Source: Candidatus Peribacteria bacterium | GTDB lineage: Bacteria; Patescibacteriota; Gracilibacteria; Peribacterales; Peribacteraceae | NCBI GenBank assembly: GCA_023245765.1 | Contig: JAHFJP010000007.1 | Location: forward strand, 1 to 43,900 | Reading direction: 5' to 3' | Length of the DNA: 43,900 bases | In this document: piece after piece, positions 165 through 42,286 of the stretch | Layout: every line of letters starts with the position of its first letter | How positions within the stretch are numbered: position 1 is the first letter of the stretch | Notes under the pieces: generated by a model | Seen by the model: the letters and a program-made list of their open reading frames with translations, nothing else | Database searches by the model: none | What the model was told of the DNA's origin: nothing | Translations under genes and position numbers: made by a program

Positions 165-518
165 TTAAAAATCTTTTTTCAATGTGACGTCGCCGCGGAA
201 AGCTTCTTCTAGTGTAGCGTTTATTTTTTTGGCGACTGCATCGGTCACATTAACTCTGTGAAGTCCGACCGAGCTCACATCTTTGAATGGAACGAGGGAA
301 GGCTGCAAAAGCCCGTTCATGTCGAGCAGCACCGTGGCACGTCCACGCAGTGCATGAGACTTGTCTACCGTTAATTTGTCCGTGCATCCGTCATGGATAG
401 GATGTGCGGAGATTTCGAGAATCCAAGAATGCGCGTCAGTGGGAATAAGAACCATAAGGTCAGGTATGGTATTCCGCTCTATCAAGCCGTCAATGGGGTT
501 TAGGGCTCGTGTCATCAT
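165..518 (-). CDS. hypothetical protein
   Basis: An ORF of 117 codons from ATG 518 to TAA 165. I prefer ATG 518 (start MMTRALNP) over the longer ATG 566 because GGAG lies about 6 nt upstream, one of few Shine-Dalgarno-like sites in the window. The shorter form also overlaps the divergent epimerase gene by only 10 bp. The protein is soluble, with no signal peptide or membrane segment. Its composition looks like a real protein, but I recognise no family. Confidence 0.5.
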   Translation of the reverse strand: MMTRALNPIDGLIERNTIPDLMVLIPTDAHSWILEISAHPIHDGCTDKLTVDKSHALRGRATVLLDMNGLLQPSLVPFKDVSSVGLHRVNVTDAVAKKINATLEEAFRGDVTLKKDF

Positions 519-1915
519 CACCGCTCCGGTATGCTCAAAAGGTGCAAGAGATCGTGTACCGCTCACCGGCTTTCTTGGACGAGGTTGCGTCCCATAAGGA
601 CAAGCACGTTCACTTGATCCTCATTGCGACCAAGCCCGACATCATCAAGCAGGTTCCTCTCTATAGGGAGCTTCAGAAAAGAGGTCATTGCGTTGTACTC
701 GGGCACACAGGACAACATTATGATGAGAATCTGAGCGGCGGGATGCTCAAGGAGTTTGGCGTGCAGCCGGACTTCAACCTCAACGTCCGTGGCACGATGT
801 ACGAAGTCGTCAGTCAGATCATCGGGCGGCTTGGGTACGTCATCGGTGAGTTGAAGAAGAGGGGAAAGGTCGTCATCCCCTACGTGCATGGCGACACGAC
901 GACGGCGATGGCGGCGAGCAACGCGGGATTCTGTCATCAGTTTGCGTCTGTTCACGTTGAGGCTGGTATACGAACCCTCACGCCAAATTATGCATTGTTT
1001 CCTGCCCTCACCCCGCACCAGTCGCTTCGCTCCGGTGCGGGGCAGGCCCCCAGCTCGAAAGGGGGGCAGTTTGACGTGAAAGCGTGGCATCACTTTCTTC
1101 AAGATCGCAAGAATTGGGAACGCGGATCACTCGAGCCCTACCCGGAACAGTTCAACACGCGGTGCAGTGAGGCTGCAACGGGGATTCATCTGGCTCCGGT
1201 TGAACTTGATCGCGAGTTCATGCTCAGTGAAGGCTTCCCCGATGACCGGATTTTCGTTGTCGGCAATTCCGTTGTCGACGCCACGATGGAGGCGATGGAG
1301 CGGATCGATCAATCAACGGTCTTTGATCGTCATTCGACTCTCAAGGATGGAGATTTTGTCCGTTTTTGCATCCATCGTCGGGAGAACTGTCTGAGCGAGA
1401 AGCGCTTCCGCGCGATCTACGGTGCGATGAAGGGATTGGTCGAAGACGGGAGAAAGGTTCTGCTGATTTCGATGATCCAAACGGAGGCCGCATTCGAGCG
1501 GTTTGGGCTCAAAGACGAAGTCAAAGCTCTCGCGAAGTCGCATCCGAACTTCATCTACTCCCCCGTGTGGGCAGAGTACGTCGACGTTGTCGCTGCGATG
1601 AGTAAAGCCGCCGTCTGCGCGACGGATTCGGGCTCGATGCAGGAGGAAATGAACGCGATGAGCATTCCGTGCGTCACACTGCGGTTCGGATCCGATCGCA
1701 GCGAGTCGATCCTGTGCGGCGGCAACATCATCGCGCCGCCGGTGGATGCAGGCATCATCAAGAAGATCATCGAATTTGCTTGGGATAATAAGCAGATGCG
1801 CAAAGCACCGAAAATTTACGGCAAGGATGTCTCAAAAAAGTGCATTGATGTCATCGAGAAGGTTCTGAAAGAAGGGGATCCGTTCAGGAATGAGGAGGGG
1901 AGGTTGCGGCTCTGA
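509..1915 (+). CDS. wecB: UDP-N-acetylglucosamine 2-epimerase (non-hydrolysing), with inserts
   Basis: Predicted to interconvert UDP-GlcNAc and UDP-ManNAc for surface glycans. Family motifs are visible: VHGDTTTAMAA, HVEAGIRT, the HRREN block, and TDSGSMQEE followed by VTLRFGSDRSES in the UDP-binding C-terminal half. At 468 aa it is longer than the usual ~370. There is an N-terminal extension of about 30 residues before the first Rossmann strand. An insert of about 45 residues lies between HVEAGIRT and EPYPEQFN, where the family normally runs on directly. Part of that insert (1001-1067) is translated hairpin repeat DNA also found intergenically at 34459-34530. The GTG start at 509 has no clear ribosome-binding site, so the exact N-terminus is uncertain. 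It is followed by an O-antigen-ligase-like gene, which fits a glycan cluster. Confidence 0.87.
   Translation: MSSSPLRYAQKVQEIVYRSPAFLDEVASHKDKHVHLILIATKPDIIKQVPLYRELQKRGHCVVLGHTGQHYDENLSGGMLKEFGVQPDFNLNVRGTMYEVVSQIIGRLGYVIGELKKRGKVVIPYVHGDTTTAMAASNAGFCHQFASVHVEAGIRTLTPNYALFPALTPHQSLRSGAGQAPSSKGGQFDVKAWHHFLQDRKNWERGSLEPYPEQFNTRCSEAATGIHLAPVELDREFMLSEGFPDDRIFVVGNSVVDATMEAMERIDQSTVFDRHSTLKDGDFVRFCIHRRENCLSEKRFRAIYGAMKGLVEDGRKVLLISMIQTEAAFERFGLKDEVKALAKSHPNFIYSPVWAEYVDVVAAMSKAAVCATDSGSMQEEMNAMSIPCVTLRFGSDRSESILCGGNIIAPPVDAGIIKKIIEFAWDNKQMRKAPKIYGKDVSKKCIDVIEKVLKEGDPFRNEEGRLRL
1001..1067. repeat. hairpin repeat inside wecB (type B)
   Basis: Starts CCTGCCCTCACCCCGCACC, has a CCGCACC/GGTGCGG stem, and is followed by a second stem CCCCC...GGGGG. 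The opening and stem match the intergenic copy at 34459-34530. It is read through in frame (ALTPHQSLRSGAGQAP) within the epimerase. Confidence 0.75.
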
Positions 1916-1996: not shown

Positions 1997-3439
1997 GTGC
2001 AACGTTTCCGTGAACAACTGACACTCGTTCTCATCGCCCTCCTCCCGTTCCACGCTCTCCTCGTGACGGTGGGGACGAAATTCCTGCTCGGTCCAGGTCA
2101 CGCACCAATGCCAGCACTCGCGATCTGGAAAGAGATACTCTTAGGCCCAATACTTCTCTTTAGCTCAGGAGAGATCTTCATGAGAGTGAAAAGTGAAAAG
2201 TTAAAAGTGAAAAATATTTTTTTAATAGATTTGATTGATGTTTTTATCCTCATACTCATTGGAATTGGGATCACGCTCTTCTTCTACCGCCCCTGGATGA
2301 CGACGACTGGGTTGGTGCTCGGATTCAAATACGATTTTATTCCTCTCATTGCGTTTCTGGTACTGCGGAGAGTCCAATGGTCTGATCAATTCCGTGCGCG
2401 CGCCGAAGGCGCGCTCCTGTGGGTGGCCGGAATTGTCGCGCTTTATGGCATCCTCACGGTCTTCGCTCCCAAAGGGTACTTCCGCCTTCTCGGCTACAGC
2501 GACGCACATTCGTTGTATCTACCCAATGGTCCGCTCGCGGCGTTCCAGCAAATCAGTGGCAGCGCAATCCGGCGGGTGCAGAGTACGTTCAGCGGACCAA
2601 ATCAATTTGGCATTTGGTTATTGATTCCTCTGAGCATCCTCGCGACACGAATTTTTCAGTCAAAAAAATTCAAGAAGCATGAATCAAGAATTTTGATGAT
2701 GTTCGGTGTCTGTCTCATTGTTGCATTGATGCTTACCTTCTCGCGCTCTGCGTGGATCGGCGCCTTTGTGATCGCTGCTGTTGTCGGTTCGAAACATCTC
2801 CCCCGACGTGTGTTCCGCGATGCACTCATCGGAATCGTCTCGATCCTTGCCATTGCCGGAGTCGCGGCATCCCTCATCGCCCCGTCGGTCTTCCTGCGCG
2901 CGACCTCCACGCGCGAGCACATCGTCCGGCCGCTGAAGGCCATCCACGAGATGATCCGCTATCCGCTGGGCATGGGTCTGGGTGCGGCTGGGCCCGCCGC
3001 CAACCGCACGCATGAGCCATGCGTGTTCCTAGAGCCAGGGAATGATCCTTCGTGGGCGAAGAATGCCCCGACACTTTGCGTCTTTGTGGGGCAAACGCAG
3101 GTACAGCCGGCGAATCATCACTGCGACTGTGCCCTGCTGCCCGAGAGCTGGTATCTCCAAGTCGGCGTCGAAATGGGAGTGCTCGGCTTTCTTTTGTACA
3201 TATGTTTGGTGGGAGTTGTGCTGAGCCGACTTGCAGTGAAAAGTGATCCTTCGTCAGGCTCAGGATTAAAAGTGAAAAATGGCGAAACCCGAACTTTTCA
3301 CTTTTCATTTTTCACTTTTCTCTTCTTCTTGGGCATCAGCATCGCCGCGTTATTCCTCCATGCCTGGGAAGACGCCGCAGTGGCCTATACGGCATGGGTA
3401 TTCGTAGCATCAAATTTCTCCAAATCTTCCTCCGTTTGA
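1997..3439 (+). CDS. O-antigen ligase / polymerase-like membrane protein (Wzy_C family)
   Basis: Polytopic inner-membrane protein of about 480 residues with many hydrophobic segments. The Wzy_C/WaaL-type signature is present: STFSGPNQFGIWL, then LTFSRSAWIG, and after a long extracytoplasmic loop LLPESWYLQVGVEMGVLGF. Such proteins join or polymerise lipid-linked glycans outside the membrane, and the wecB gene upstream agrees. The ORF can be extended to GTG 1937, but those 20 codons are translated repeat, so GTG 1997 is preferred. Two repeat-derived inserts lie in the gene. RVKSEKLKVKN is at about 2187-2220. A complete left-plus-right repeat element with VKSDPSSGSGLKVKN is at 3235-3323. The 3' end overlaps the convergent gene by 55 bp. 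Confidence 0.8.
   Translation: MQRFREQLTLVLIALLPFHALLVTVGTKFLLGPGHAPMPALAIWKEILLGPILLFSSGEIFMRVKSEKLKVKNIFLIDLIDVFILILIGIGITLFFYRPWMTTTGLVLGFKYDFIPLIAFLVLRRVQWSDQFRARAEGALLWVAGIVALYGILTVFAPKGYFRLLGYSDAHSLYLPNGPLAAFQQISGSAIRRVQSTFSGPNQFGIWLLIPLSILATRIFQSKKFKKHESRILMMFGVCLIVALMLTFSRSAWIGAFVIAAVVGSKHLPRRVFRDALIGIVSILAIAGVAASLIAPSVFLRATSTREHIVRPLKAIHEMIRYPLGMGLGAAGPAANRTHEPCVFLEPGNDPSWAKNAPTLCVFVGQTQVQPANHHCDCALLPESWYLQVGVEMGVLGFLLYICLVGVVLSRLAVKSDPSSGSGLKVKNGETRTFHFSFFTFLFFLGISIAALFLHAWEDAAVAYTAWVFVASNFSKSSSV
3235..3323. repeat. heptamer plus TTCGTCAGGCTCAGGAT repeat inside the O-antigen-ligase-like gene
   Basis: GAAAAGT heptamers flank a TCCTTCGTCAGGCTCAGGAT core, and an inverted heptamer arm follows. 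Bases 3235-3278 are identical over 44 bp to 6693-6736 inside guaA. The element is translated in frame in both genes. Confidence 0.85.
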
Positions 3440-5742: not shown

Positions 5743-7581
5743 ATGGTACACAAGGGCTCGATCGTCATCCTGGACTTCGGAGGTCAATACGCACATCTCA
5801 TCGCCAACCGTGTCCGACGTCTTGGGGCGTATTCGGAGATCAGAGTCTCAGAAACTCCAGCAAAAGAACTCAAGGGTGCAGCTGGGATCATCCTGAGTGG
5901 CGGACCACAGAGTGTGTACGAAAAGGGAAGTCCGACTGCAGATCACGGCATCTTCGAGCTCGGTATTCCCATCCTCGGCCTCTGCTACGGACATCAGTGG
6001 CTCGCGCATGCGCTCAATGGCAAGGTGAGTCCCGGGAAAACGAAAGAATACGGTCACACGATGATCGAACGTAGCGGCGAGTCGCCCATCTTCAAAGGTC
6101 TTCCGCAGATCATGACCGTCTGGATGTCGCACGGCGACGAAGTCACTCAGCTTCCGAAGGGATTCGTCGCGATGGCAAAGTCATCCGTCTGTTCGGTCGC
6201 TGCGATGGCCAATGAGAGCCGCAAGATCTACGGCCTGCAGTTCCACATCGAAGTGACGCACACGGAGCATGGCATGGAAATGCTCAAGAAGTTTGTCGCT
6301 CTTTGCAAAACGACGCCGTGGAAAATTGATTCGTTCGTCGATTATGTCGGCGGACAGATCAAAGAAGAGGTCGGCAAGTCCAAGAAAGTCTTCATGCTCG
6401 TCTCCGGCGGCGTCGATTCCACGGTCGCATTCACGCTACTCAACAAAGTTCTCGGCCCATCGCGCGTCCAGGGCATGCTCGTCGATACGGGATTGATGCG
6501 CAAGGACGAAGTTGCGCAGATTCGGGCGGCATTCAAGAAGTTGAAGATCAAGAATTTGCATATCGAAGATGCATCGGATGAGTTCTTCAAAAATTTGAAG
6601 GGCGCGACGGATCCGGAGCAGAAGAGGAAGATCATCGGGAGGACGTTTTTGGATGTTCAGCAGCGGGTGAGTGAGAAGATGGGGCTGACGGGAGTGAAAA
6701 GTGATCCTTCGTCAGGCTCAGGATTAAAAGTGAAAAGTGACGAGTGGTTACTCGGTCAAGGCACCATTTATCCCGATACGATCGAAACCGGCGGGTCGCG
6801 GCATGCTGATCAAATCAAAACGCACCACAACCGCGTTGATGCGGTGCAGAAGATGATCGATGCGGGGCAGGTGATCGAGCCGCTCAAGGAGCTCTATAAG
6901 GATGAAGTCCGGATGCTGGGGGAAGAGCTGGGGCTGCCGAAGGAACTTGTGTGGAGGCATCCTTTCCCTGGGCCGGGGTTGGGAGTGAGGATTCTTTGTA
7001 CGAACGAAGTGAAAAGAGAAAAGAGAAAAGTGAAAAGTGATGGAAGTATTTCAGTGCCTCATGAGATCCTCCCCGTTCGCTCTGTCGGAGTTCAGGGAGA
7101 CGGCAGGACATACCGGCATGCAGTTGCGCTCTTTTCACGGCATCCCTGTCACGTGACGCCGGAACATAAGGCATTGGCGACATCGATTCCGAATACCAAT
7201 AAGGAGATCAACCGTGTACTGCTCTGTACATCGCATGATCGCCCGGTGGAATTCACCGTGACGCCGGGGACGGTCACCCGCGAGCGCGCCGAACTTCTGC
7301 GGGAGGCGGACGCCATCGTCAGTGAGGAGATGCGCGCGGCGGATCTCTACGGCGTCATCTGGCAGTTCCCGGTCGTGCTGCTTCCATTTGGAACCAAGAA
7401 AGGAGGTCAGTCGATCGTCCTCCGTCCGATTGTCAGTGTCGACGCCATGACGGCGAATGCATATCTACTTGAACAGAGTGTTCTCGAAACAATCACCCGC
7501 CGGATTCTCGATCTCAAAGGTATCGATGCGGTGTTCCTGGATCTCACGAATAAGCCGCCGGGAACAATTGAGTGGGAGTGA
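5743..7581 (+). CDS. guaA: GMP synthase (glutamine-hydrolysing), long form
   Basis: Converts XMP to GMP using glutamine and ATP. The N-terminal class I amidotransferase has Cys81 in GLCYGHQ and the His/Glu pair in GLQFHIEVTH (usually FHPE). The ATP pyrophosphatase loop is VSGGVDSTVAF. Then come GQGTIYPDTIE, HPFPGPGLGVRILC and the C-terminal KPPGTIEWE. At 612 aa it exceeds the ~515-525 of most bacterial enzymes. After HPFPGPGLGVRI there is an extra LPVRSVGVQGDGRTY segment before the final dimerisation segment, as in eukaryotic-type GMP synthetase with a duplicated dimerisation domain. Two repeat-derived inserts are also present: VKSDPSSGSGLKVKSD (6693-6741) and EVKREKRKVKSDG (7006-7043). Confidence 0.95.
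   Translation: MVHKGSIVILDFGGQYAHLIANRVRRLGAYSEIRVSETPAKELKGAAGIILSGGPQSVYEKGSPTADHGIFELGIPILGLCYGHQWLAHALNGKVSPGKTKEYGHTMIERSGESPIFKGLPQIMTVWMSHGDEVTQLPKGFVAMAKSSVCSVAAMANESRKIYGLQFHIEVTHTEHGMEMLKKFVALCKTTPWKIDSFVDYVGGQIKEEVGKSKKVFMLVSGGVDSTVAFTLLNKVLGPSRVQGMLVDTGLMRKDEVAQIRAAFKKLKIKNLHIEDASDEFFKNLKGATDPEQKRKIIGRTFLDVQQRVSEKMGLTGVKSDPSSGSGLKVKSDEWLLGQGTIYPDTIETGGSRHADQIKTHHNRVDAVQKMIDAGQVIEPLKELYKDEVRMLGEELGLPKELVWRHPFPGPGLGVRILCTNEVKREKRKVKSDGSISVPHEILPVRSVGVQGDGRTYRHAVALFSRHPCHVTPEHKALATSIPNTNKEINRVLLCTSHDRPVEFTVTPGTVTRERAELLREADAIVSEEMRAADLYGVIWQFPVVLLPFGTKKGGQSIVLRPIVSVDAMTANAYLLEQSVLETITRRILDLKGIDAVFLDLTNKPPGTIEWE
6693..6741. repeat. heptamer plus TTCGTCAGGCTCAGGAT repeat inside guaA
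   Basis: 44 bp (6693-6736) identical to 3235-3278 in the O-antigen-ligase-like gene. It is translated in the same frame in both, giving VKSDPSSGSGLKVK. It lies between the FLDVQQRVSEKM helix and the conserved WLLGQGTIYPD strand. Confidence 0.9.
7006..7043. repeat. GAAAAGA/GAAAAGT heptamer array inside guaA
   Basis: About five heptamers, read in frame as EVKREKRKVKSDG just after the conserved GLGVRILC motif. Confidence 0.8.
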
Positions 7582-19131: not shown

Positions 19132-20964
19132 ATGACTGTATTGTTGACGCTCTTCCTCGCCGGCCTGATCACCATCCTGCTCCCCTGCATCCTCCCGCTG
19201 ATCCCGGTCGTCTTGGGTGTGAGCATTGCGGGCAAGAGCAGGCTCAGGCCACTCGTCACGATCGGGGGCATGGTGCTGTCGTTCGTCCTCTTCACATTCA
19301 TTCTCCAGACGCTCCTCAGCAGGTTTGTCGCGTTTGCCGACATCATCCAGATTTCGACGTACTACGTGCTGCTACTCTTTGGCATTTGTTTCCTCACCCA
19401 TAACAAGAACATTCAGCTGATTGTTGCGGTGCTCGGCGGGTACTTCTATTACAAATACGGATGGATCACCATCTCGATCGCGGAAGTCGGCGGGTGGCTG
19501 GCAATTGAAATCGGCGGACGGGTCGCAGCGAAGATTCAGCAGATCGGATCGGATGTGCAGCAGGCGGCACGATCCGGCATCGGTTCCGAATCACTCGTCA
19601 CGGCATTCATCGTCGGACTCACGCTCGGTTTGGTCTGGGTACCCTGCGCGGGCCCCGCACTCGGCTTTGCCCTCACGCTTGTCCGCAACGAACCGGGACT
19701 GATGGCGCTCGGCGCTCTCTCCGCCTACGGCATTGGCGCGGCGGTTCCCCTCCTCATTGTCGCCTATGGCGGCCAGTGGGCGGTGCATTCGGTGCGAGCG
19801 CTCAGCCAATACACCGGCCGCATCAAGCAGTTTGCGGGCGCGGTGCTCATTATGACCGCAATCGGATTCCAGTACGGATGGCTCATGACATTTCAAACAT
19901 GGCTAACAGATATCACCGGATTTGGATCGTTTGGATCGAAAATAGAAGAGAATTTGTTTCAGCAGGAAGTATCATCATCGAGTACCTCGGTCCCGTCGGT
20001 CTCCTCGGTTTCTTCGGTTCCCTCTTCTGTGACTCTCCCCACCCTTCCAAAAATCTCACGCGCTCCAGAGCTTACAGGTCTAGGTCCATGGCATAACTCG
20101 CAGCCGTTCACGATGGCGTCGCTCAAAGGCAAAGTTGTCCTCGTCGACTTCTGGACCTACAGCTGCATCAACTGCATCCGGACGCTGCCGTATATGGAGG
20201 GATACTGGAAAAAGTTTAAAGACACTCCGTTTGTTCTGCTCGGCGTGCATACTCCCGAGTTCGTGTTCGAGAAGGATGAGGGAAACGTGAGCGACGCGAT
20301 CAAGCGCCACGGGCTCACGTACCCCATCGCGCAGGACAATGATTTCGGAACGTGGAACGCGTTCGCGAATCGTTACTGGCCGGCGAAGTATTTGATCGAT
20401 GCCGACGGATACATCCGGTACACGCATTTCGGCGAGGGCAATTACGACGAAACGGACCTCGCCATCCAGAGTCTGCTCAAAGAGATCGGCGCAACGGCGA
20501 AAGGTCCGATGATTGGCGCGGATGCGTCCGAGGGGGGAGGCCGCGAAACGTCACCGGAGACCTACGTCGGTTCGCGTAACTGGCCGTCGTTCAGTAACAG
20601 CGCCGGCGACCCCGATACCGCGATCCACACCTACGTCATGCCGGAATCCGTGCCACTCCATCAGTATGCGCTCAGCGGCGACTGGCAGCTGTCGGTCGAC
20701 GAGGAGAGTCAGGTACTGCGGAGCACCGAAGGAGCAATCCGGTATCACGCGATGGGATCCGAAGTGAATCTAGTCTTGGGTATCGAAGAAGGATCAAAAC
20801 CCGTTCCCGTCGATATTTTCATTGATGGAATGAAAACGAAGACGATCACGGTCCGGGCGCACGATCTCTACAATCTCTTCACGGGCACGTACGGCGAGCA
20901 TGACGTTACACTCAACATTCATGGAAAGGGCGTAGCGGCGTATGCGTTCACGTTTGGGTCATAG
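19132..20964 (+). CDS. dipZ: DipZ-like thiol-disulfide protein (CcdA + thioredoxin + C-terminal domain)
   Basis: 610 residues in three parts. The N-terminal CcdA-like membrane domain (about 1-265) has the two conserved membrane cysteines in LLPCILPLIPVVLG and WVPCAGPALG. A Ser/Val/Pro linker is next. The extracytoplasmic thioredoxin/TlpA-like domain has FWTYSCINCIRTLPY with the C345-x2-C348 redox pair. The C-terminal beta domain (about 490-610) matches that of mycobacterial DipZ (DIFIDGMKTKTITV). Carries electrons across the membrane for reduction of exported thiols. The linker contains SVPSVSSVSSVPSS, encoded by a 9-bp tandem repeat (19983-20024) like those found between genes. Confidence 0.88.
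   Translation: MTVLLTLFLAGLITILLPCILPLIPVVLGVSIAGKSRLRPLVTIGGMVLSFVLFTFILQTLLSRFVAFADIIQISTYYVLLLFGICFLTHNKNIQLIVAVLGGYFYYKYGWITISIAEVGGWLAIEIGGRVAAKIQQIGSDVQQAARSGIGSESLVTAFIVGLTLGLVWVPCAGPALGFALTLVRNEPGLMALGALSAYGIGAAVPLLIVAYGGQWAVHSVRALSQYTGRIKQFAGAVLIMTAIGFQYGWLMTFQTWLTDITGFGSFGSKIEENLFQQEVSSSSTSVPSVSSVSSVPSSVTLPTLPKISRAPELTGLGPWHNSQPFTMASLKGKVVLVDFWTYSCINCIRTLPYMEGYWKKFKDTPFVLLGVHTPEFVFEKDEGNVSDAIKRHGLTYPIAQDNDFGTWNAFANRYWPAKYLIDADGYIRYTHFGEGNYDETDLAIQSLLKEIGATAKGPMIGADASEGGGRETSPETYVGSRNWPSFSNSAGDPDTAIHTYVMPESVPLHQYALSGDWQLSVDEESQVLRSTEGAIRYHAMGSEVNLVLGIEEGSKPVPVDIFIDGMKTKTITVRAHDLYNLFTGTYGEHDVTLNIHGKGVAAYAFTFGS
19983..20024. repeat. 9-bp tandem repeat inside dipZ
   Basis: Units such as ACCTCGGTC, CCGTCGGTC, TCCTCGGTT and TCTTCGGTT, with the same TCGGT core as the intergenic arrays at 38762-38862 and 42184-42286. 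One period is exactly three codons, which gives the repeating x-S-V tripeptide. Confidence 0.8.
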
Positions 20965-34438: not shown

Positions 34439-34458
34439 CTGTAGTTGATGCATTTTTT

Positions 34459-34530
34459 CCTGCCCTCACCCGCCCCGCACCTTGTTGCGCAAGGGTGCGG
34501 GGCACCCTCTCCCGCTGCGGCAGGAGAGGG
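34459..34530. repeat. GC-rich hairpin repeat between secD and folB (type B)
   Basis: CCTGCCCTCACCC opening, CCCCGCACC...GGTGCGGGG stem and a GGCAGG close. The opening and stem are shared with the copy inside wecB (1001-1067). It fills the gap after secD. Confidence 0.75.
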
Positions 34531-34562
34531 AATGAAACAGGGGTCCATTCATTTCGAATAAT

Positions 34563-37809: not shown

Positions 37810-38763
37810 TCATCCGTCGACAATCAATTTCGTCCCGGTCCGGAGCATTTGTTTCCGCAAATCAATTCCCTGAAGTATGCAACCATCGTCGATCACGCAG
37901 TCGCGCAGCGTGCAGTCGCGGATCGTCACATTGTCGAAGATCATGCAGTCGGTCAGTTCGCTCCGCTCAATCATGCAATTGCGCCCGACCGTGACACTCC
38001 CGCGTACGGTTGTCTCCTTTATTGTCGCGTCCGGATCGACCAGCGCCTGTTCCCCAATCAATTCCCTGTGCGCGTGCAGGTAACTTCCGAATGAACCGAT
38101 GTCCATCCATGGCTCCGAAAAGATGAAGCAGTCGACGGTCATGTTTCTGTGCAAAAATTCCTCAAAAATTCCCCCGAGGTTGTCGGGCTTCACTTTCGCG
38201 AATTCCATCAGGACCGGGAGGGCGGACTTGGGGATGATCACGCAGCCGGTGCTGACCAAGGTGGAGCTTGGAGACTTGGGTTTCTCTTCAAATCCCGTGA
38301 CCCGTGTTCCTTCTCCTTTTATGACGACGCCAAATGCCTTCGCTCTCTCCAGATCTCCCACGTCATGGGCAGCCAGCAGGGGATTTCCGCTGAAGGCTTT
38401 CAGAAATGTCTCCATCGAGAATCCCAGGTAGTTATCTCCCGTCAGGATCAGCAGATCATCATCAATGCTCTCCGCCCTCACCCACTCGGCGATCGAGCCG
38501 AGCGCGCCGAGTTTGTGGTCGTCACGACTGGTGCCTTCAACCACGAGTTCCATTCCTGAACGCTGCAGACCGTCGAGCCACTGTTTAAATCCATCCGCAA
38601 ATGCGGCATTGGTACTCACAGTGATCGGCATGCCGGACGGAATCTTCTCGATCAAATGCGTGATGATGGGTTTGCCGGCCAAGGGGAGCAGCGGTTTGGC
38701 CCGCTTTTCCGTCAACGGCCACAAACGAGTGGCGAAACCGCCGGCGAGGATAAAAGCATGCAT
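37810..38763 (-). CDS. sugar-1-phosphate nucleotidyltransferase
   Basis: 317 residues. GT-A nucleotidyltransferase domain: FILAGGFATRLWPLTEKRAK and PLLPLAGKPIITHLIEKI, LLILTGDNYLGF (metal Asp), VTGFEEKPKSP and EPWMDIGSFGSYLHAH. The C-terminal left-handed beta-helix hexapeptides include IKETTVRGSVTVGRNCMIE. It makes an NDP-sugar for surface glycan. Whether it is glucose-1-P thymidylyl-, mannose-1-P guanylyl- or another type is not decided. The start lies in the left arm of a 9-bp repeat. Confidence 0.85.
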   Translation of the reverse strand: MHAFILAGGFATRLWPLTEKRAKPLLPLAGKPIITHLIEKIPSGMPITVSTNAAFADGFKQWLDGLQRSGMELVVEGTSRDDHKLGALGSIAEWVRAESIDDDLLILTGDNYLGFSMETFLKAFSGNPLLAAHDVGDLERAKAFGVVIKGEGTRVTGFEEKPKSPSSTLVSTGCVIIPKSALPVLMEFAKVKPDNLGGIFEEFLHRNMTVDCFIFSEPWMDIGSFGSYLHAHRELIGEQALVDPDATIKETTVRGSVTVGRNCMIERSELTDCMIFDNVTIRDCTLRDCVIDDGCILQGIDLRKQMLRTGTKLIVDG

Positions 38764-38862
38764 GAGGAAACCGAGGAAACCGAGGCAACCGACGAAACCG
38801 AGGATGCCTCGTTGAAAGTATACTCTTCGGTTTCCTCGGATTCATCGGTTGCGTCGGTTGCG
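38762..38862. repeat. 9-bp tandem repeat, inverted arms
   Basis: Left arm units GAGGAAACC, GAGGAAACC, GAGGCAACC, GACGAAACC. Right arm units TCTTCGGTT, TCCTCGGAT, TCATCGGTT, GCGTCGGTT. The spacer contains TATACT. It fills the whole gap between the two glycan genes and touches the start of one. Confidence 0.85.
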
Positions 38863-38863
38863 T

Positions 38864-40772: not shown

Positions 40773-42184
40773 TCCCCGTCACTATAGAGAAACTCACCTT
40801 CGGAGGTGCAGGTTTGACCCATGTCGATGGTTTAACCGTGTTCGTCCCGGACACGATTCCGGGCCAGCAGGTGGAGATCGAAATTACCAAAAAGAAGGAC
40901 ACGTTTGCGGAAGCGAAGGTCGTCAAGGTTCTGCGCCGCGCCAAGGACGAAATTCCCGCGCGCTGCACGCACTTTCACGACTGCGGCGGATGCATCTGGC
41001 AGAATCTCCCGTACGACAAGCAGATCAGTTATAAGGAGGACATCGTCCGCGAGACACTCACGCACCTTACACCGGTGGACGAAGAGCAACGCAAACAACT
41101 CGCCGGCCGCGTGATCAACATCGTTCCGAGTCCGCAGATCTACCACTATCGCAACAAACTCGAGTTCAGCTTTGGATACCAGTCGATGCGCACCGAGGAA
41201 AAAGCCGGCCGGCGTCTCTACTTCGACGAAGGACCGAGCATCGGGTTCCATCAGCCGGGTCAATGGTCCACGATTCTGCCGATCACCGAGTGTCACCTCT
41301 ACGACGAGCAGGTGGGGGTGCTCCTCGCCGACGTCAAACGCTTCATGGAGCAGACGCGGCTCCCGGTGTTCAATCCCAAAACAAACAAAGGAATGCTTCG
41401 CAATCTCCTCCTGCGCCGCGGCGTCCACACCGGCGAGCAGATGATCTGCTTTTTGCTCCACGCGCGGAAAAAAGAACTCGAGCCGCTCTTCCAACAGTTC
41501 CTCCGTGCGTTCGGCGGGCGCCCGCACCTCGCGTCGCTCCTCATCGTCGAACATATGGGCCTCCACGAGAAGCCGGAGTTCCCCAAAGTCCACACGCTCA
41601 TCGGCAAGCCCACCATCACCGAGCGGCTCTTTGATCTCAGCTTCGAAATCTCGCCGTTTTCGTTCTTTCAGACCAACACGCTCGCAGCCGAAAAACTCTA
41701 CACCGCGATCGCGCAGGCTGCAGCACTGACAAGCCGCGATACCGTGCTCGATGCCTACTGCGGCATGGGCACGATCGGGCAATATCTGGCGCGGTTTTGT
41801 CAGAGAGTCGTCGGCGTCGAGAGCCATCCTTCCGCGGTTGATGATGCGCTCAAGAGCGCGGGCCGCAATCGCATCGGCAACATCAGTTTCTATAAAGGAC
41901 GAGCCGAGCAGGTGCTCCTCGATCAGCTCAAACCCGGGGGCAAATACAAATTCGATGTCGTCGTGCTCGATCCCCCCCGCGCGGGGCTCCATCCCAAAGC
42001 CCGCGATGCGGTTCTCGCGCATCAACCGGAGAAGATCGTCTACGTCTCGTGCAACACCGCGACGTTCGCACGCGATCTCGGGGAGTTCTTAAAGGGAGGG
42101 TATGACCTCAGGACAATCCAGCCCGTCGATCTGTTCCCGCATACAGCACATATTGAGACGGTGGCGTTGTTACAGAAAAAGTAA
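40766..42184 (+). CDS. rlmD: 23S rRNA (uracil-C5)-methyltransferase, RlmD/RumA family
   Basis: 472 residues. N-terminal TRAM domain (VTIEKLTFGGAGLTHVDGLT, VFVPDTIPGQQVEIEI). Iron-sulfur cysteines in CTHFHDCGGCIWQNL. SAM motif DAYCGMGTIGQYLA. VVVLDPPRAGLHPKA, and the nucleophile Cys429 in VYVSCNTATFARDL. The end is LFPHTAHIETVALL. Methylates a uridine of 23S rRNA (U1939 for RlmD). The paralogues RlmC and TrmA share the core, so the exact target is not certain. It is divergent from the secreted-protein gene, with 41 bp between starts. Confidence 0.93.
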   Translation: MSIPVTIEKLTFGGAGLTHVDGLTVFVPDTIPGQQVEIEITKKKDTFAEAKVVKVLRRAKDEIPARCTHFHDCGGCIWQNLPYDKQISYKEDIVRETLTHLTPVDEEQRKQLAGRVINIVPSPQIYHYRNKLEFSFGYQSMRTEEKAGRRLYFDEGPSIGFHQPGQWSTILPITECHLYDEQVGVLLADVKRFMEQTRLPVFNPKTNKGMLRNLLLRRGVHTGEQMICFLLHARKKELEPLFQQFLRAFGGRPHLASLLIVEHMGLHEKPEFPKVHTLIGKPTITERLFDLSFEISPFSFFQTNTLAAEKLYTAIAQAAALTSRDTVLDAYCGMGTIGQYLARFCQRVVGVESHPSAVDDALKSAGRNRIGNISFYKGRAEQVLLDQLKPGGKYKFDVVVLDPPRAGLHPKARDAVLAHQPEKIVYVSCNTATFARDLGEFLKGGYDLRTIQPVDLFPHTAHIETVALLQKK

Positions 42185-42286
42185 CCGAAGAATCCGACGG
42201 AACCGAGGGAACCGAGGATTCTTTACTTTTCCAAAAACCAATCCTCGGTTGCTTCGGTTTCTTCGGTTACGTCGGTTTCCTTCCGC
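42184..42286. repeat. 9-bp tandem repeat, inverted arms, between rlmD and rlmH
   Basis: Left arm around CCGACGGAACCGAGGGAACC. Right arm units TCCTCGGTT, GCTTCGGTT, TCTTCGGTT, ACGTCGGTT. Same TCGGT core as 38762-38862 and the dipZ linker. Confidence 0.85.

Follow-up and report, generated by a model that had tools for sequence, protein, structure and literature searches.

How did a dispersed hairpin repeat come to lie, in frame, within a gene encoding a conserved enzyme, and is this a single event? The question is raised by a UDP-GlcNAc 2-epimerase gene in the window, by which we mean the whole analysed stretch of 43,900 nucleotides from Candidatus Peribacteria. The genome to which it belongs (G000) comprises 1.45 Mb in 71 contigs and is 95% complete.

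The host gene and the layout of the loop

The gene and the part of it that concerns us are as follows.

509..1915, + strand: UDP-GlcNAc 2-epimerase (non-hydrolysing, WecB/MnaA type), host of the repeat; assigned by Pfam PF02350, TIGR00236 and Foldseek
986..1072, + strand: recurrent capture loop (residues 160-188), preceded by HVEAGIRTLTP and followed by the family-wide helix WxxFLxDRxNWxRGSxEP; from aligned epimerases and counts of arrays across 58 genomes
1073..1126, + strand: family-wide insert (helix 190-197 and onward), missing from solved epimerases and not derived from a repeat

The open reading frame matches Epimerase_2 (PF02350) with 169.5 bits and has the fold and conserved motifs of this family. 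The invariant residues are retained, and the top Foldseek match is 4nes (E 1.6e-24, TM 0.90 by target). The TIGR00236 score, 185.1 bits, is below the equivalog cut-off of 210.15; the protein represents a divergent subfamily. A separate assembly record, JAHFJN010000002.1, is 99.98% identical to the window over 4912 bp, the repeat insert included. Outside the loop, comparison with the epimerase of the sister species G002 yields dN 0.079 and dS 1.48 (435 codons), which shows strong purifying selection on the gene; within the loop, pN amounts to 0.35. The protein is probably made and active, and the loop peptide is probably without function.

The preliminary description placed an unusual insert of about 45 residues after HVEAGIRT. 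Indeed, 46 residues separate TLTP from GSxEPYPEQF in the window epimerase. However, the repeat supplies only about 20 of them, whereas the other 26 or so are family-wide, and the shortest relatives already have 25-27. Solved epimerases have merely a short linker at this site; thus the helix-containing part is a feature of the subfamily, and the repeat lies on its N-terminal side. The AlphaFold2 model has pLDDT 89.3, with values below 50 only at residues 1-9 and 169-185. The second of these segments corresponds to the central part of the repeat-derived peptide, and so the insert is predicted to be disordered. By its adjacency in sequence to HVEAGIRT, the loop is presumably close to the active-site strand of the known fold.

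The record JAHFJN010000002.1 is a 7.6-kb contig (G031:C7; loci L043, L014, L237) 99.97-100% identical to the window, though binned in another genus. Transfer between genera was considered for the 100% identical protein of G031 and rejected, as G031 has its own GuaA (66%) elsewhere and an identical one on the 7.6-kb contig. Most likely, this contig is a mis-binned piece of the window's species.

The two-hairpin element

The epimerase copy of the element and its intergenic relative in the window have the following parts.

990..1067, + strand: in-frame copy of the dispersed repeat with two hairpins, encoding roughly ALFPALTPHQSLRSGAGQAPSSKGG; from 12 places in the own genome and comparison of the left end with 34448-34471
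1011..1042, + strand: first hairpin, CCCCGCACC-(14 nt)-GGTGCGGGG, with the core CCAGTCGCTTCGCTCCGG common to many copies; from copy comparison and folding
1046..1067, + strand: second, diverged hairpin GCCCCC...GGGGGC, at the place of CCCTCTCCC...GGGAGAGGG in other copies
34448..34531, + strand: copy of this composite element between genes, comprising the left end, the hairpin and ACCCTCTCCC...GGAGAGGG

The CCGCACC/GGTGCGG stem described earlier is present, being formed by CCCCGCACC (1011-1019) and GGTGCGGGG (1034-1042), and it was correctly stated that the element contains no stop in the epimerase frame. The exact sequence CCTGCCCTCACCC occurs in the window only at 1001-1013 and 34459-34471. 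The block shared by the two copies is longer than claimed, starting at 990 and 34448: positions 990-1013 and 34448-34471 are identical in 23 of 24 bases (repeat family D20). The sharing with 34459-34530 is limited to the left end and the arms of the stem and does not extend to the hairpin loop or the 3' part; this copy matches that of the epimerase at 77% over query positions 1-53.

The isolated first hairpin folds with -20.4 kcal/mol (z -3.75), and one of 200 shuffled sequences was equally good. The stability of the whole epimerase copy is not unusual compared to shuffles (z -1.2). The intergenic copy 34448-34531 is unusually stable (-48.1 kcal/mol, z -4.8).

A search of the own genome found the element at 12 places, the epimerase included (E <= 3.3e-4). 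The best non-self matches of the epimerase copy have E-values 2.6e-15, 2.1e-13 and 1.3e-12, and contigs C64 and C57 hold copies closer to it than the one at 34459. The copies are modular: GCCCTCACCC is followed by a variable hairpin and then by CCCTCTCCC...GGGAGAGGG. The middle hairpin may be CCCCGCACC...GGTGCGGGG, GGCGCGCGACGCGCC or GGCGCCGCGACGGCGCC, or there may be none. The element is thus a short GC-rich imperfect palindrome present in many copies, both intergenic and within genes (those of the epimerase, an FNR-like protein and SufU). No target-site duplication was found for the element; Rfam gave no match in the window at gathering thresholds.

In the epimerase gene of G002, an element CCCCCACCCCCGG...GGGAGAGGGG occupies the same place as the G000 copy, with a different left end. 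The G000 element may have arisen via insertion into an older element common with G002.

Recurrent filling of the epimerase loop in Peribacteraceae

In the alignment of 29 relatives, the conserved HVEAGIRTLTP is followed by a stretch almost wholly different between genera and then by the conserved helix ending with RGSxEPYPEQFNTR. Among 58 Peribacteraceae epimerases, the loop is filled with different repeats, mostly tandem 7-base units, but also 8-base units and palindromes. The 7-base units are GGAAAGT (G003), CGCAACT (G005), GGGCGTA (G009), GGAAAAT (G034), GCTACAA (G024), GGGATTC (G021) and GAAAAGT (G028). The arrays of GTATTCC in G019 and of TTGAATG in G006 are followed by their own reverse complements. 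The insert of the window epimerase is not a heptamer array. Apart from G000, palindromes fill the loop in G002 (CCCTCTCCC...GGGAGAGGG type) and in G033 (GCCTTCGCC...GGCGGGC, flanked by AAGTGCG units). The G033 palindrome has no second match within G033 at the threshold used, its matches being in other genomes only. In G079, AAAATTG units are interrupted by TCCTTCGTCAGGCTCAG, the palindrome by which arrays in the guaA and O-antigen-ligase-like genes of the window are broken up as well. The epimerase loop also carries a palindrome, GTAGGGGCGTATTGCAATACGCCCCTAC, in G058, which belongs to another family of the class. Even sister species have different fillings, as seen in G000/G002/G003, G019/G009 and G007/G028.

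The arrays are concentrated in the loop. In the epimerase genes of 25 Peribacteraceae genomes, 12 of the 13 lag-7 arrays fall in the loop, which makes up 4.6% of the gene; all other lags from 4 to 13 yielded one array in total. The epimerases of 34 further Peribacteraceae, fetched once the pattern had been fixed, served as a held-out set, and 33 of them have both motifs. In these, nine lag-7 arrays are in the loop (3.2% of the length) and one is elsewhere, and all six lag-8 arrays are in the loop. A simple binomial estimate for nine of the ten lag-7 arrays at 3.2% is about 3e-13; it ignores relatedness, and one array, common to G009, G082 and G084, may be inherited. The 7-base period is well above other periods in the relatives' epimerases, in GuaA and in other genes of the window. 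In many of the 58 loops no repeat can be recognised; such loops may hold decayed repeats or may never have been filled.

The preliminary description proposed capture of a repeat inside the epimerase gene, to be checked against sister genomes, with the same residues in unrelated codons counting against it. Capture is supported: the repeat belongs to a dispersed family, and the residues found here in the homologues are entirely different and come from other repeats. However, a single capture proved too narrow a description, as the above comparisons show that this loop has captured repeats many times over, and loops of other enzymes are filled as well.

In Peribacteraceae STB_147 (L045), a second, different epimerase insert (EPTSAKAFPFAKASPSASASGDRSGDKSVG) was observed upstream of KRGKIVIPY, outside the loop.

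Captured repeats in other genes

In-frame repeat inserts are present in two more genes of the window, encoding the GMP synthase GuaA (5743-7581; two inserts) and an O-antigen-ligase-like protein (PF04932; 1937-3439; at least two inserts).

6693..6743, + strand: GuaA site 1, in-frame 7-base array AGTGAAAAGTGA interrupted by the palindrome TCCTTCGTCAGGCTCAGGA
7004..7043, + strand: GuaA site 2, in-frame 7-base array, with other units in other species
2183..2215, + strand: in-frame 7-base array in the O-antigen-ligase-like gene
3235..3330, + strand: second insert in the O-antigen-ligase-like gene, 7-base arrays and the palindrome TCCTTCGTCAGGCTCAGGA as in GuaA

Twelve of the 13 lag-7 arrays in guaA genes are at these two sites (five and seven, respectively), with units differing by species; the same sites in other Peribacteraceae contain different 7-base units or palindromes. 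Elsewhere in the own genome, a ferredoxin-reductase-like (FNR-like) gene (L002, G000:C64:5757-6596) has three inserts. One of them is the composite element of the epimerase, read in the same frame (LTLHQSLRSGAGQAPGPSPVATGEGG in the FNR-like protein, LTPHQSLRSGAGQAPSSKGG in the epimerase). The NifU_N protein SufU (L004, G000:C57:4341-4769) has one insert, the same composite element on the other strand, and a SufBD protein (L194, G000:C16) has one insert of the GGGAGAGGG type. The FNR and SufU relatives either lack these inserts or have other repeats at the same sites. The density of 7-base arrays is estimated at 3-7 per 100 kb from sampled stretches of eight genomes, the own-genome contigs having been picked partly for holding copies of the element; many arrays are within long open reading frames.

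Origin of the fillings

The explanation we prefer, with a probability of about 0.8, is that selfish or slippage-made repeats became fixed in frame at permissive loops, many unrelated kinds of repeats converging on the same sites. The chromosomes of Peribacteria are loaded with short dispersed repeats, namely small palindromes and tandem arrays of 7-base, sometimes 8-base, units, one frequently nested in another; their copies would land or grow at many places. Copies within genes would survive only if they add a multiple of three bases, contain no stop, and encode a peptide in a loop tolerating any sequence. The loop after HVEAGIRTLTP would be permissive in this sense, and so would be filled, replaced or expanded by successive lineages with different repeats. 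The filling in the window's species is a copy of the two-hairpin element CCCTCACCC-hairpin-CCCTCTCCC...GGGAGAGGG. Arrays may enter by replication slippage and template switching, and palindromes by some mobilisation or recombination route.

One could dispense with mobility altogether. Each lineage's array would then have grown in place by replication slippage in a freely varying loop, and the likeness to sequences elsewhere would reflect a shared 7-base mutational bias. Repeats with a 7-base unit are the commonest among 5-11 base repeats in most prokaryotic genomes and arise via polymerase slippage (PMC4679880). Sharing of 12-mers between the loop and its own genome is only weakly above that with other genomes (p 0.07), which fits this reading, but several units occur throughout the family, and this weakens the signal. 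However, units match between different sites of one genome: their mean cyclic distance is 1.44 within a genome and 2.86 between genomes (p 0.001, permutation within sites), with units read from the arrays by hand and sites partly linked, epimerase and guaA being about 4 kb apart. Further, the palindromes in the window, G002, G033 and G079 are copies of dispersed families, and the arrays of G019 and G006 continue as their own reverse complement; slippage alone does not account for these. We thus consider purely local growth rather unlikely; both processes, local expansion and the copying of dispersed repeats, probably contribute. Mobilisation of the palindromic part by a RAYT/Y1 (HUH) transposase, in the manner of REP sequences, would agree with the nested hairpins, similar to REP/BIME mosaics, and with the PF01797 genes, which were found in 26 of the 40 Peribacteraceae sampled and many of which have palindromes of their own on either side (L149-L176). 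However, the sole PF01797 gene found in the own genome (on C12; the genome being 95% complete) is flanked by other palindromes. No element of the CCCTCACCC/GGGAGAGGG type was present beside any of the 16 PF01797 genes read, no cognate transposase was found, and this route seems improbable.

The variation itself might be useful, the loop having been diversified for new substrate or partner specificity or for phase variation. The loop directly follows the catalytic motif, and envelope-sugar enzymes are typical targets of phase variation. On the other hand, the same pattern is seen in the cytosolic GuaA, SufU, SufBD and FNR-like enzyme, the loop peptide is predicted to be disordered, and the observed lengths keep the frame, all of which makes this explanation very unlikely. 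Finally, the named records are metagenome-assembled, and an assembly artefact or a pseudogene might be suspected. This can hardly be the case, as a second assembly has the same insert, the 435 codons outside the loop are under strong purifying selection, and the invariant residues are retained.

In-frame fixation at permissive loops could be one aspect of an active general process in Peribacteria that seeds 7-base arrays and palindromes chromosome-wide, with fixed enzyme loops as recurrent landing sites. This extension is tentative. If true, a measurable share of the housekeeping proteome would have species-specific, disordered, repeat-encoded segments turning over between sister species.

Comparison with known repeats

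The best-known conserved enzymes with repeats captured in frame are those of Rickettsia and Wolbachia. The Peribacteria add cases from another phylum, the Patescibacteria (CPR), with several unrelated kinds of repeats on the same loops. A text search of a literature collection for intragenic repeats in Peregrinibacteria gave no report, and a broader one on CPR gave no match among the papers listed, which is weak evidence of novelty.

Rickettsia palindromic elements (RPEs) are dispersed and occur in frame in many unrelated conserved genes, with an open frame and without destroying the gene; Gmk, one of the carriers, is translated into an active product (PMC2229807; PMC10969869). They are 100-150 bp long and insert at the same locus in orthologues (PMC3767692). 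The Peribacteria element resembles RPEs and the Wolbachia palindromic elements in outcome, being in frame, stop-free, tolerated in conserved enzymes and missing from orthologues. However, it is only about 80 bp long, the orthologues hold unrelated repeats at the same locus, most fillings are 7-base arrays, and the phylum is different. By length it would not be an RPE family, and the likeness is drawn from described features. With REP/BIME sequences it shares short GC-rich hairpins, nested mosaics, genome-wide copies and the presence of RAYT-like genes in the family; unlike them, it has copies inside genes and no cognate transposase was seen.

The Peribacteria arrays are comparable to the cyanobacterial STRRs, which are tandem 7-base repeats. 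Heptanucleotide repeats of the TAACTGA type in Beggiatoaceae and cyanobacteria form many sets per genome, have lineage-specific units and are mostly intergenic, although 25 proteins of the Maribeggiatoa genome contain or overlap such sets (PMC4679880). The arrays considered here are likewise tandem, lineage-specific and present in many sets per genome, but they repeatedly fill the same loops of conserved enzymes, with units differing by species. Hairpins are also present inside functional coding genes of Nematomorpha mitochondria (PMC6649704). Those are perfect, maintained palindromes, whereas in Peribacteria we see dispersed copies at a recurrent loop.

The loops amount to an experiment replicated by nature, from which one may learn where proteins accept random peptides and how disordered segments originate. 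For annotation, the residues of such loops should be considered uninformative on phylogeny and function, and a profile search breaks such a protein into two.

Three further regions of the window, 19978-20024, 38762-38863 and 42178-42282, contain 9-base repeats (TCGGTTTCC / GAAACCGAG type), which in the last region form a 43-base inverted pair.
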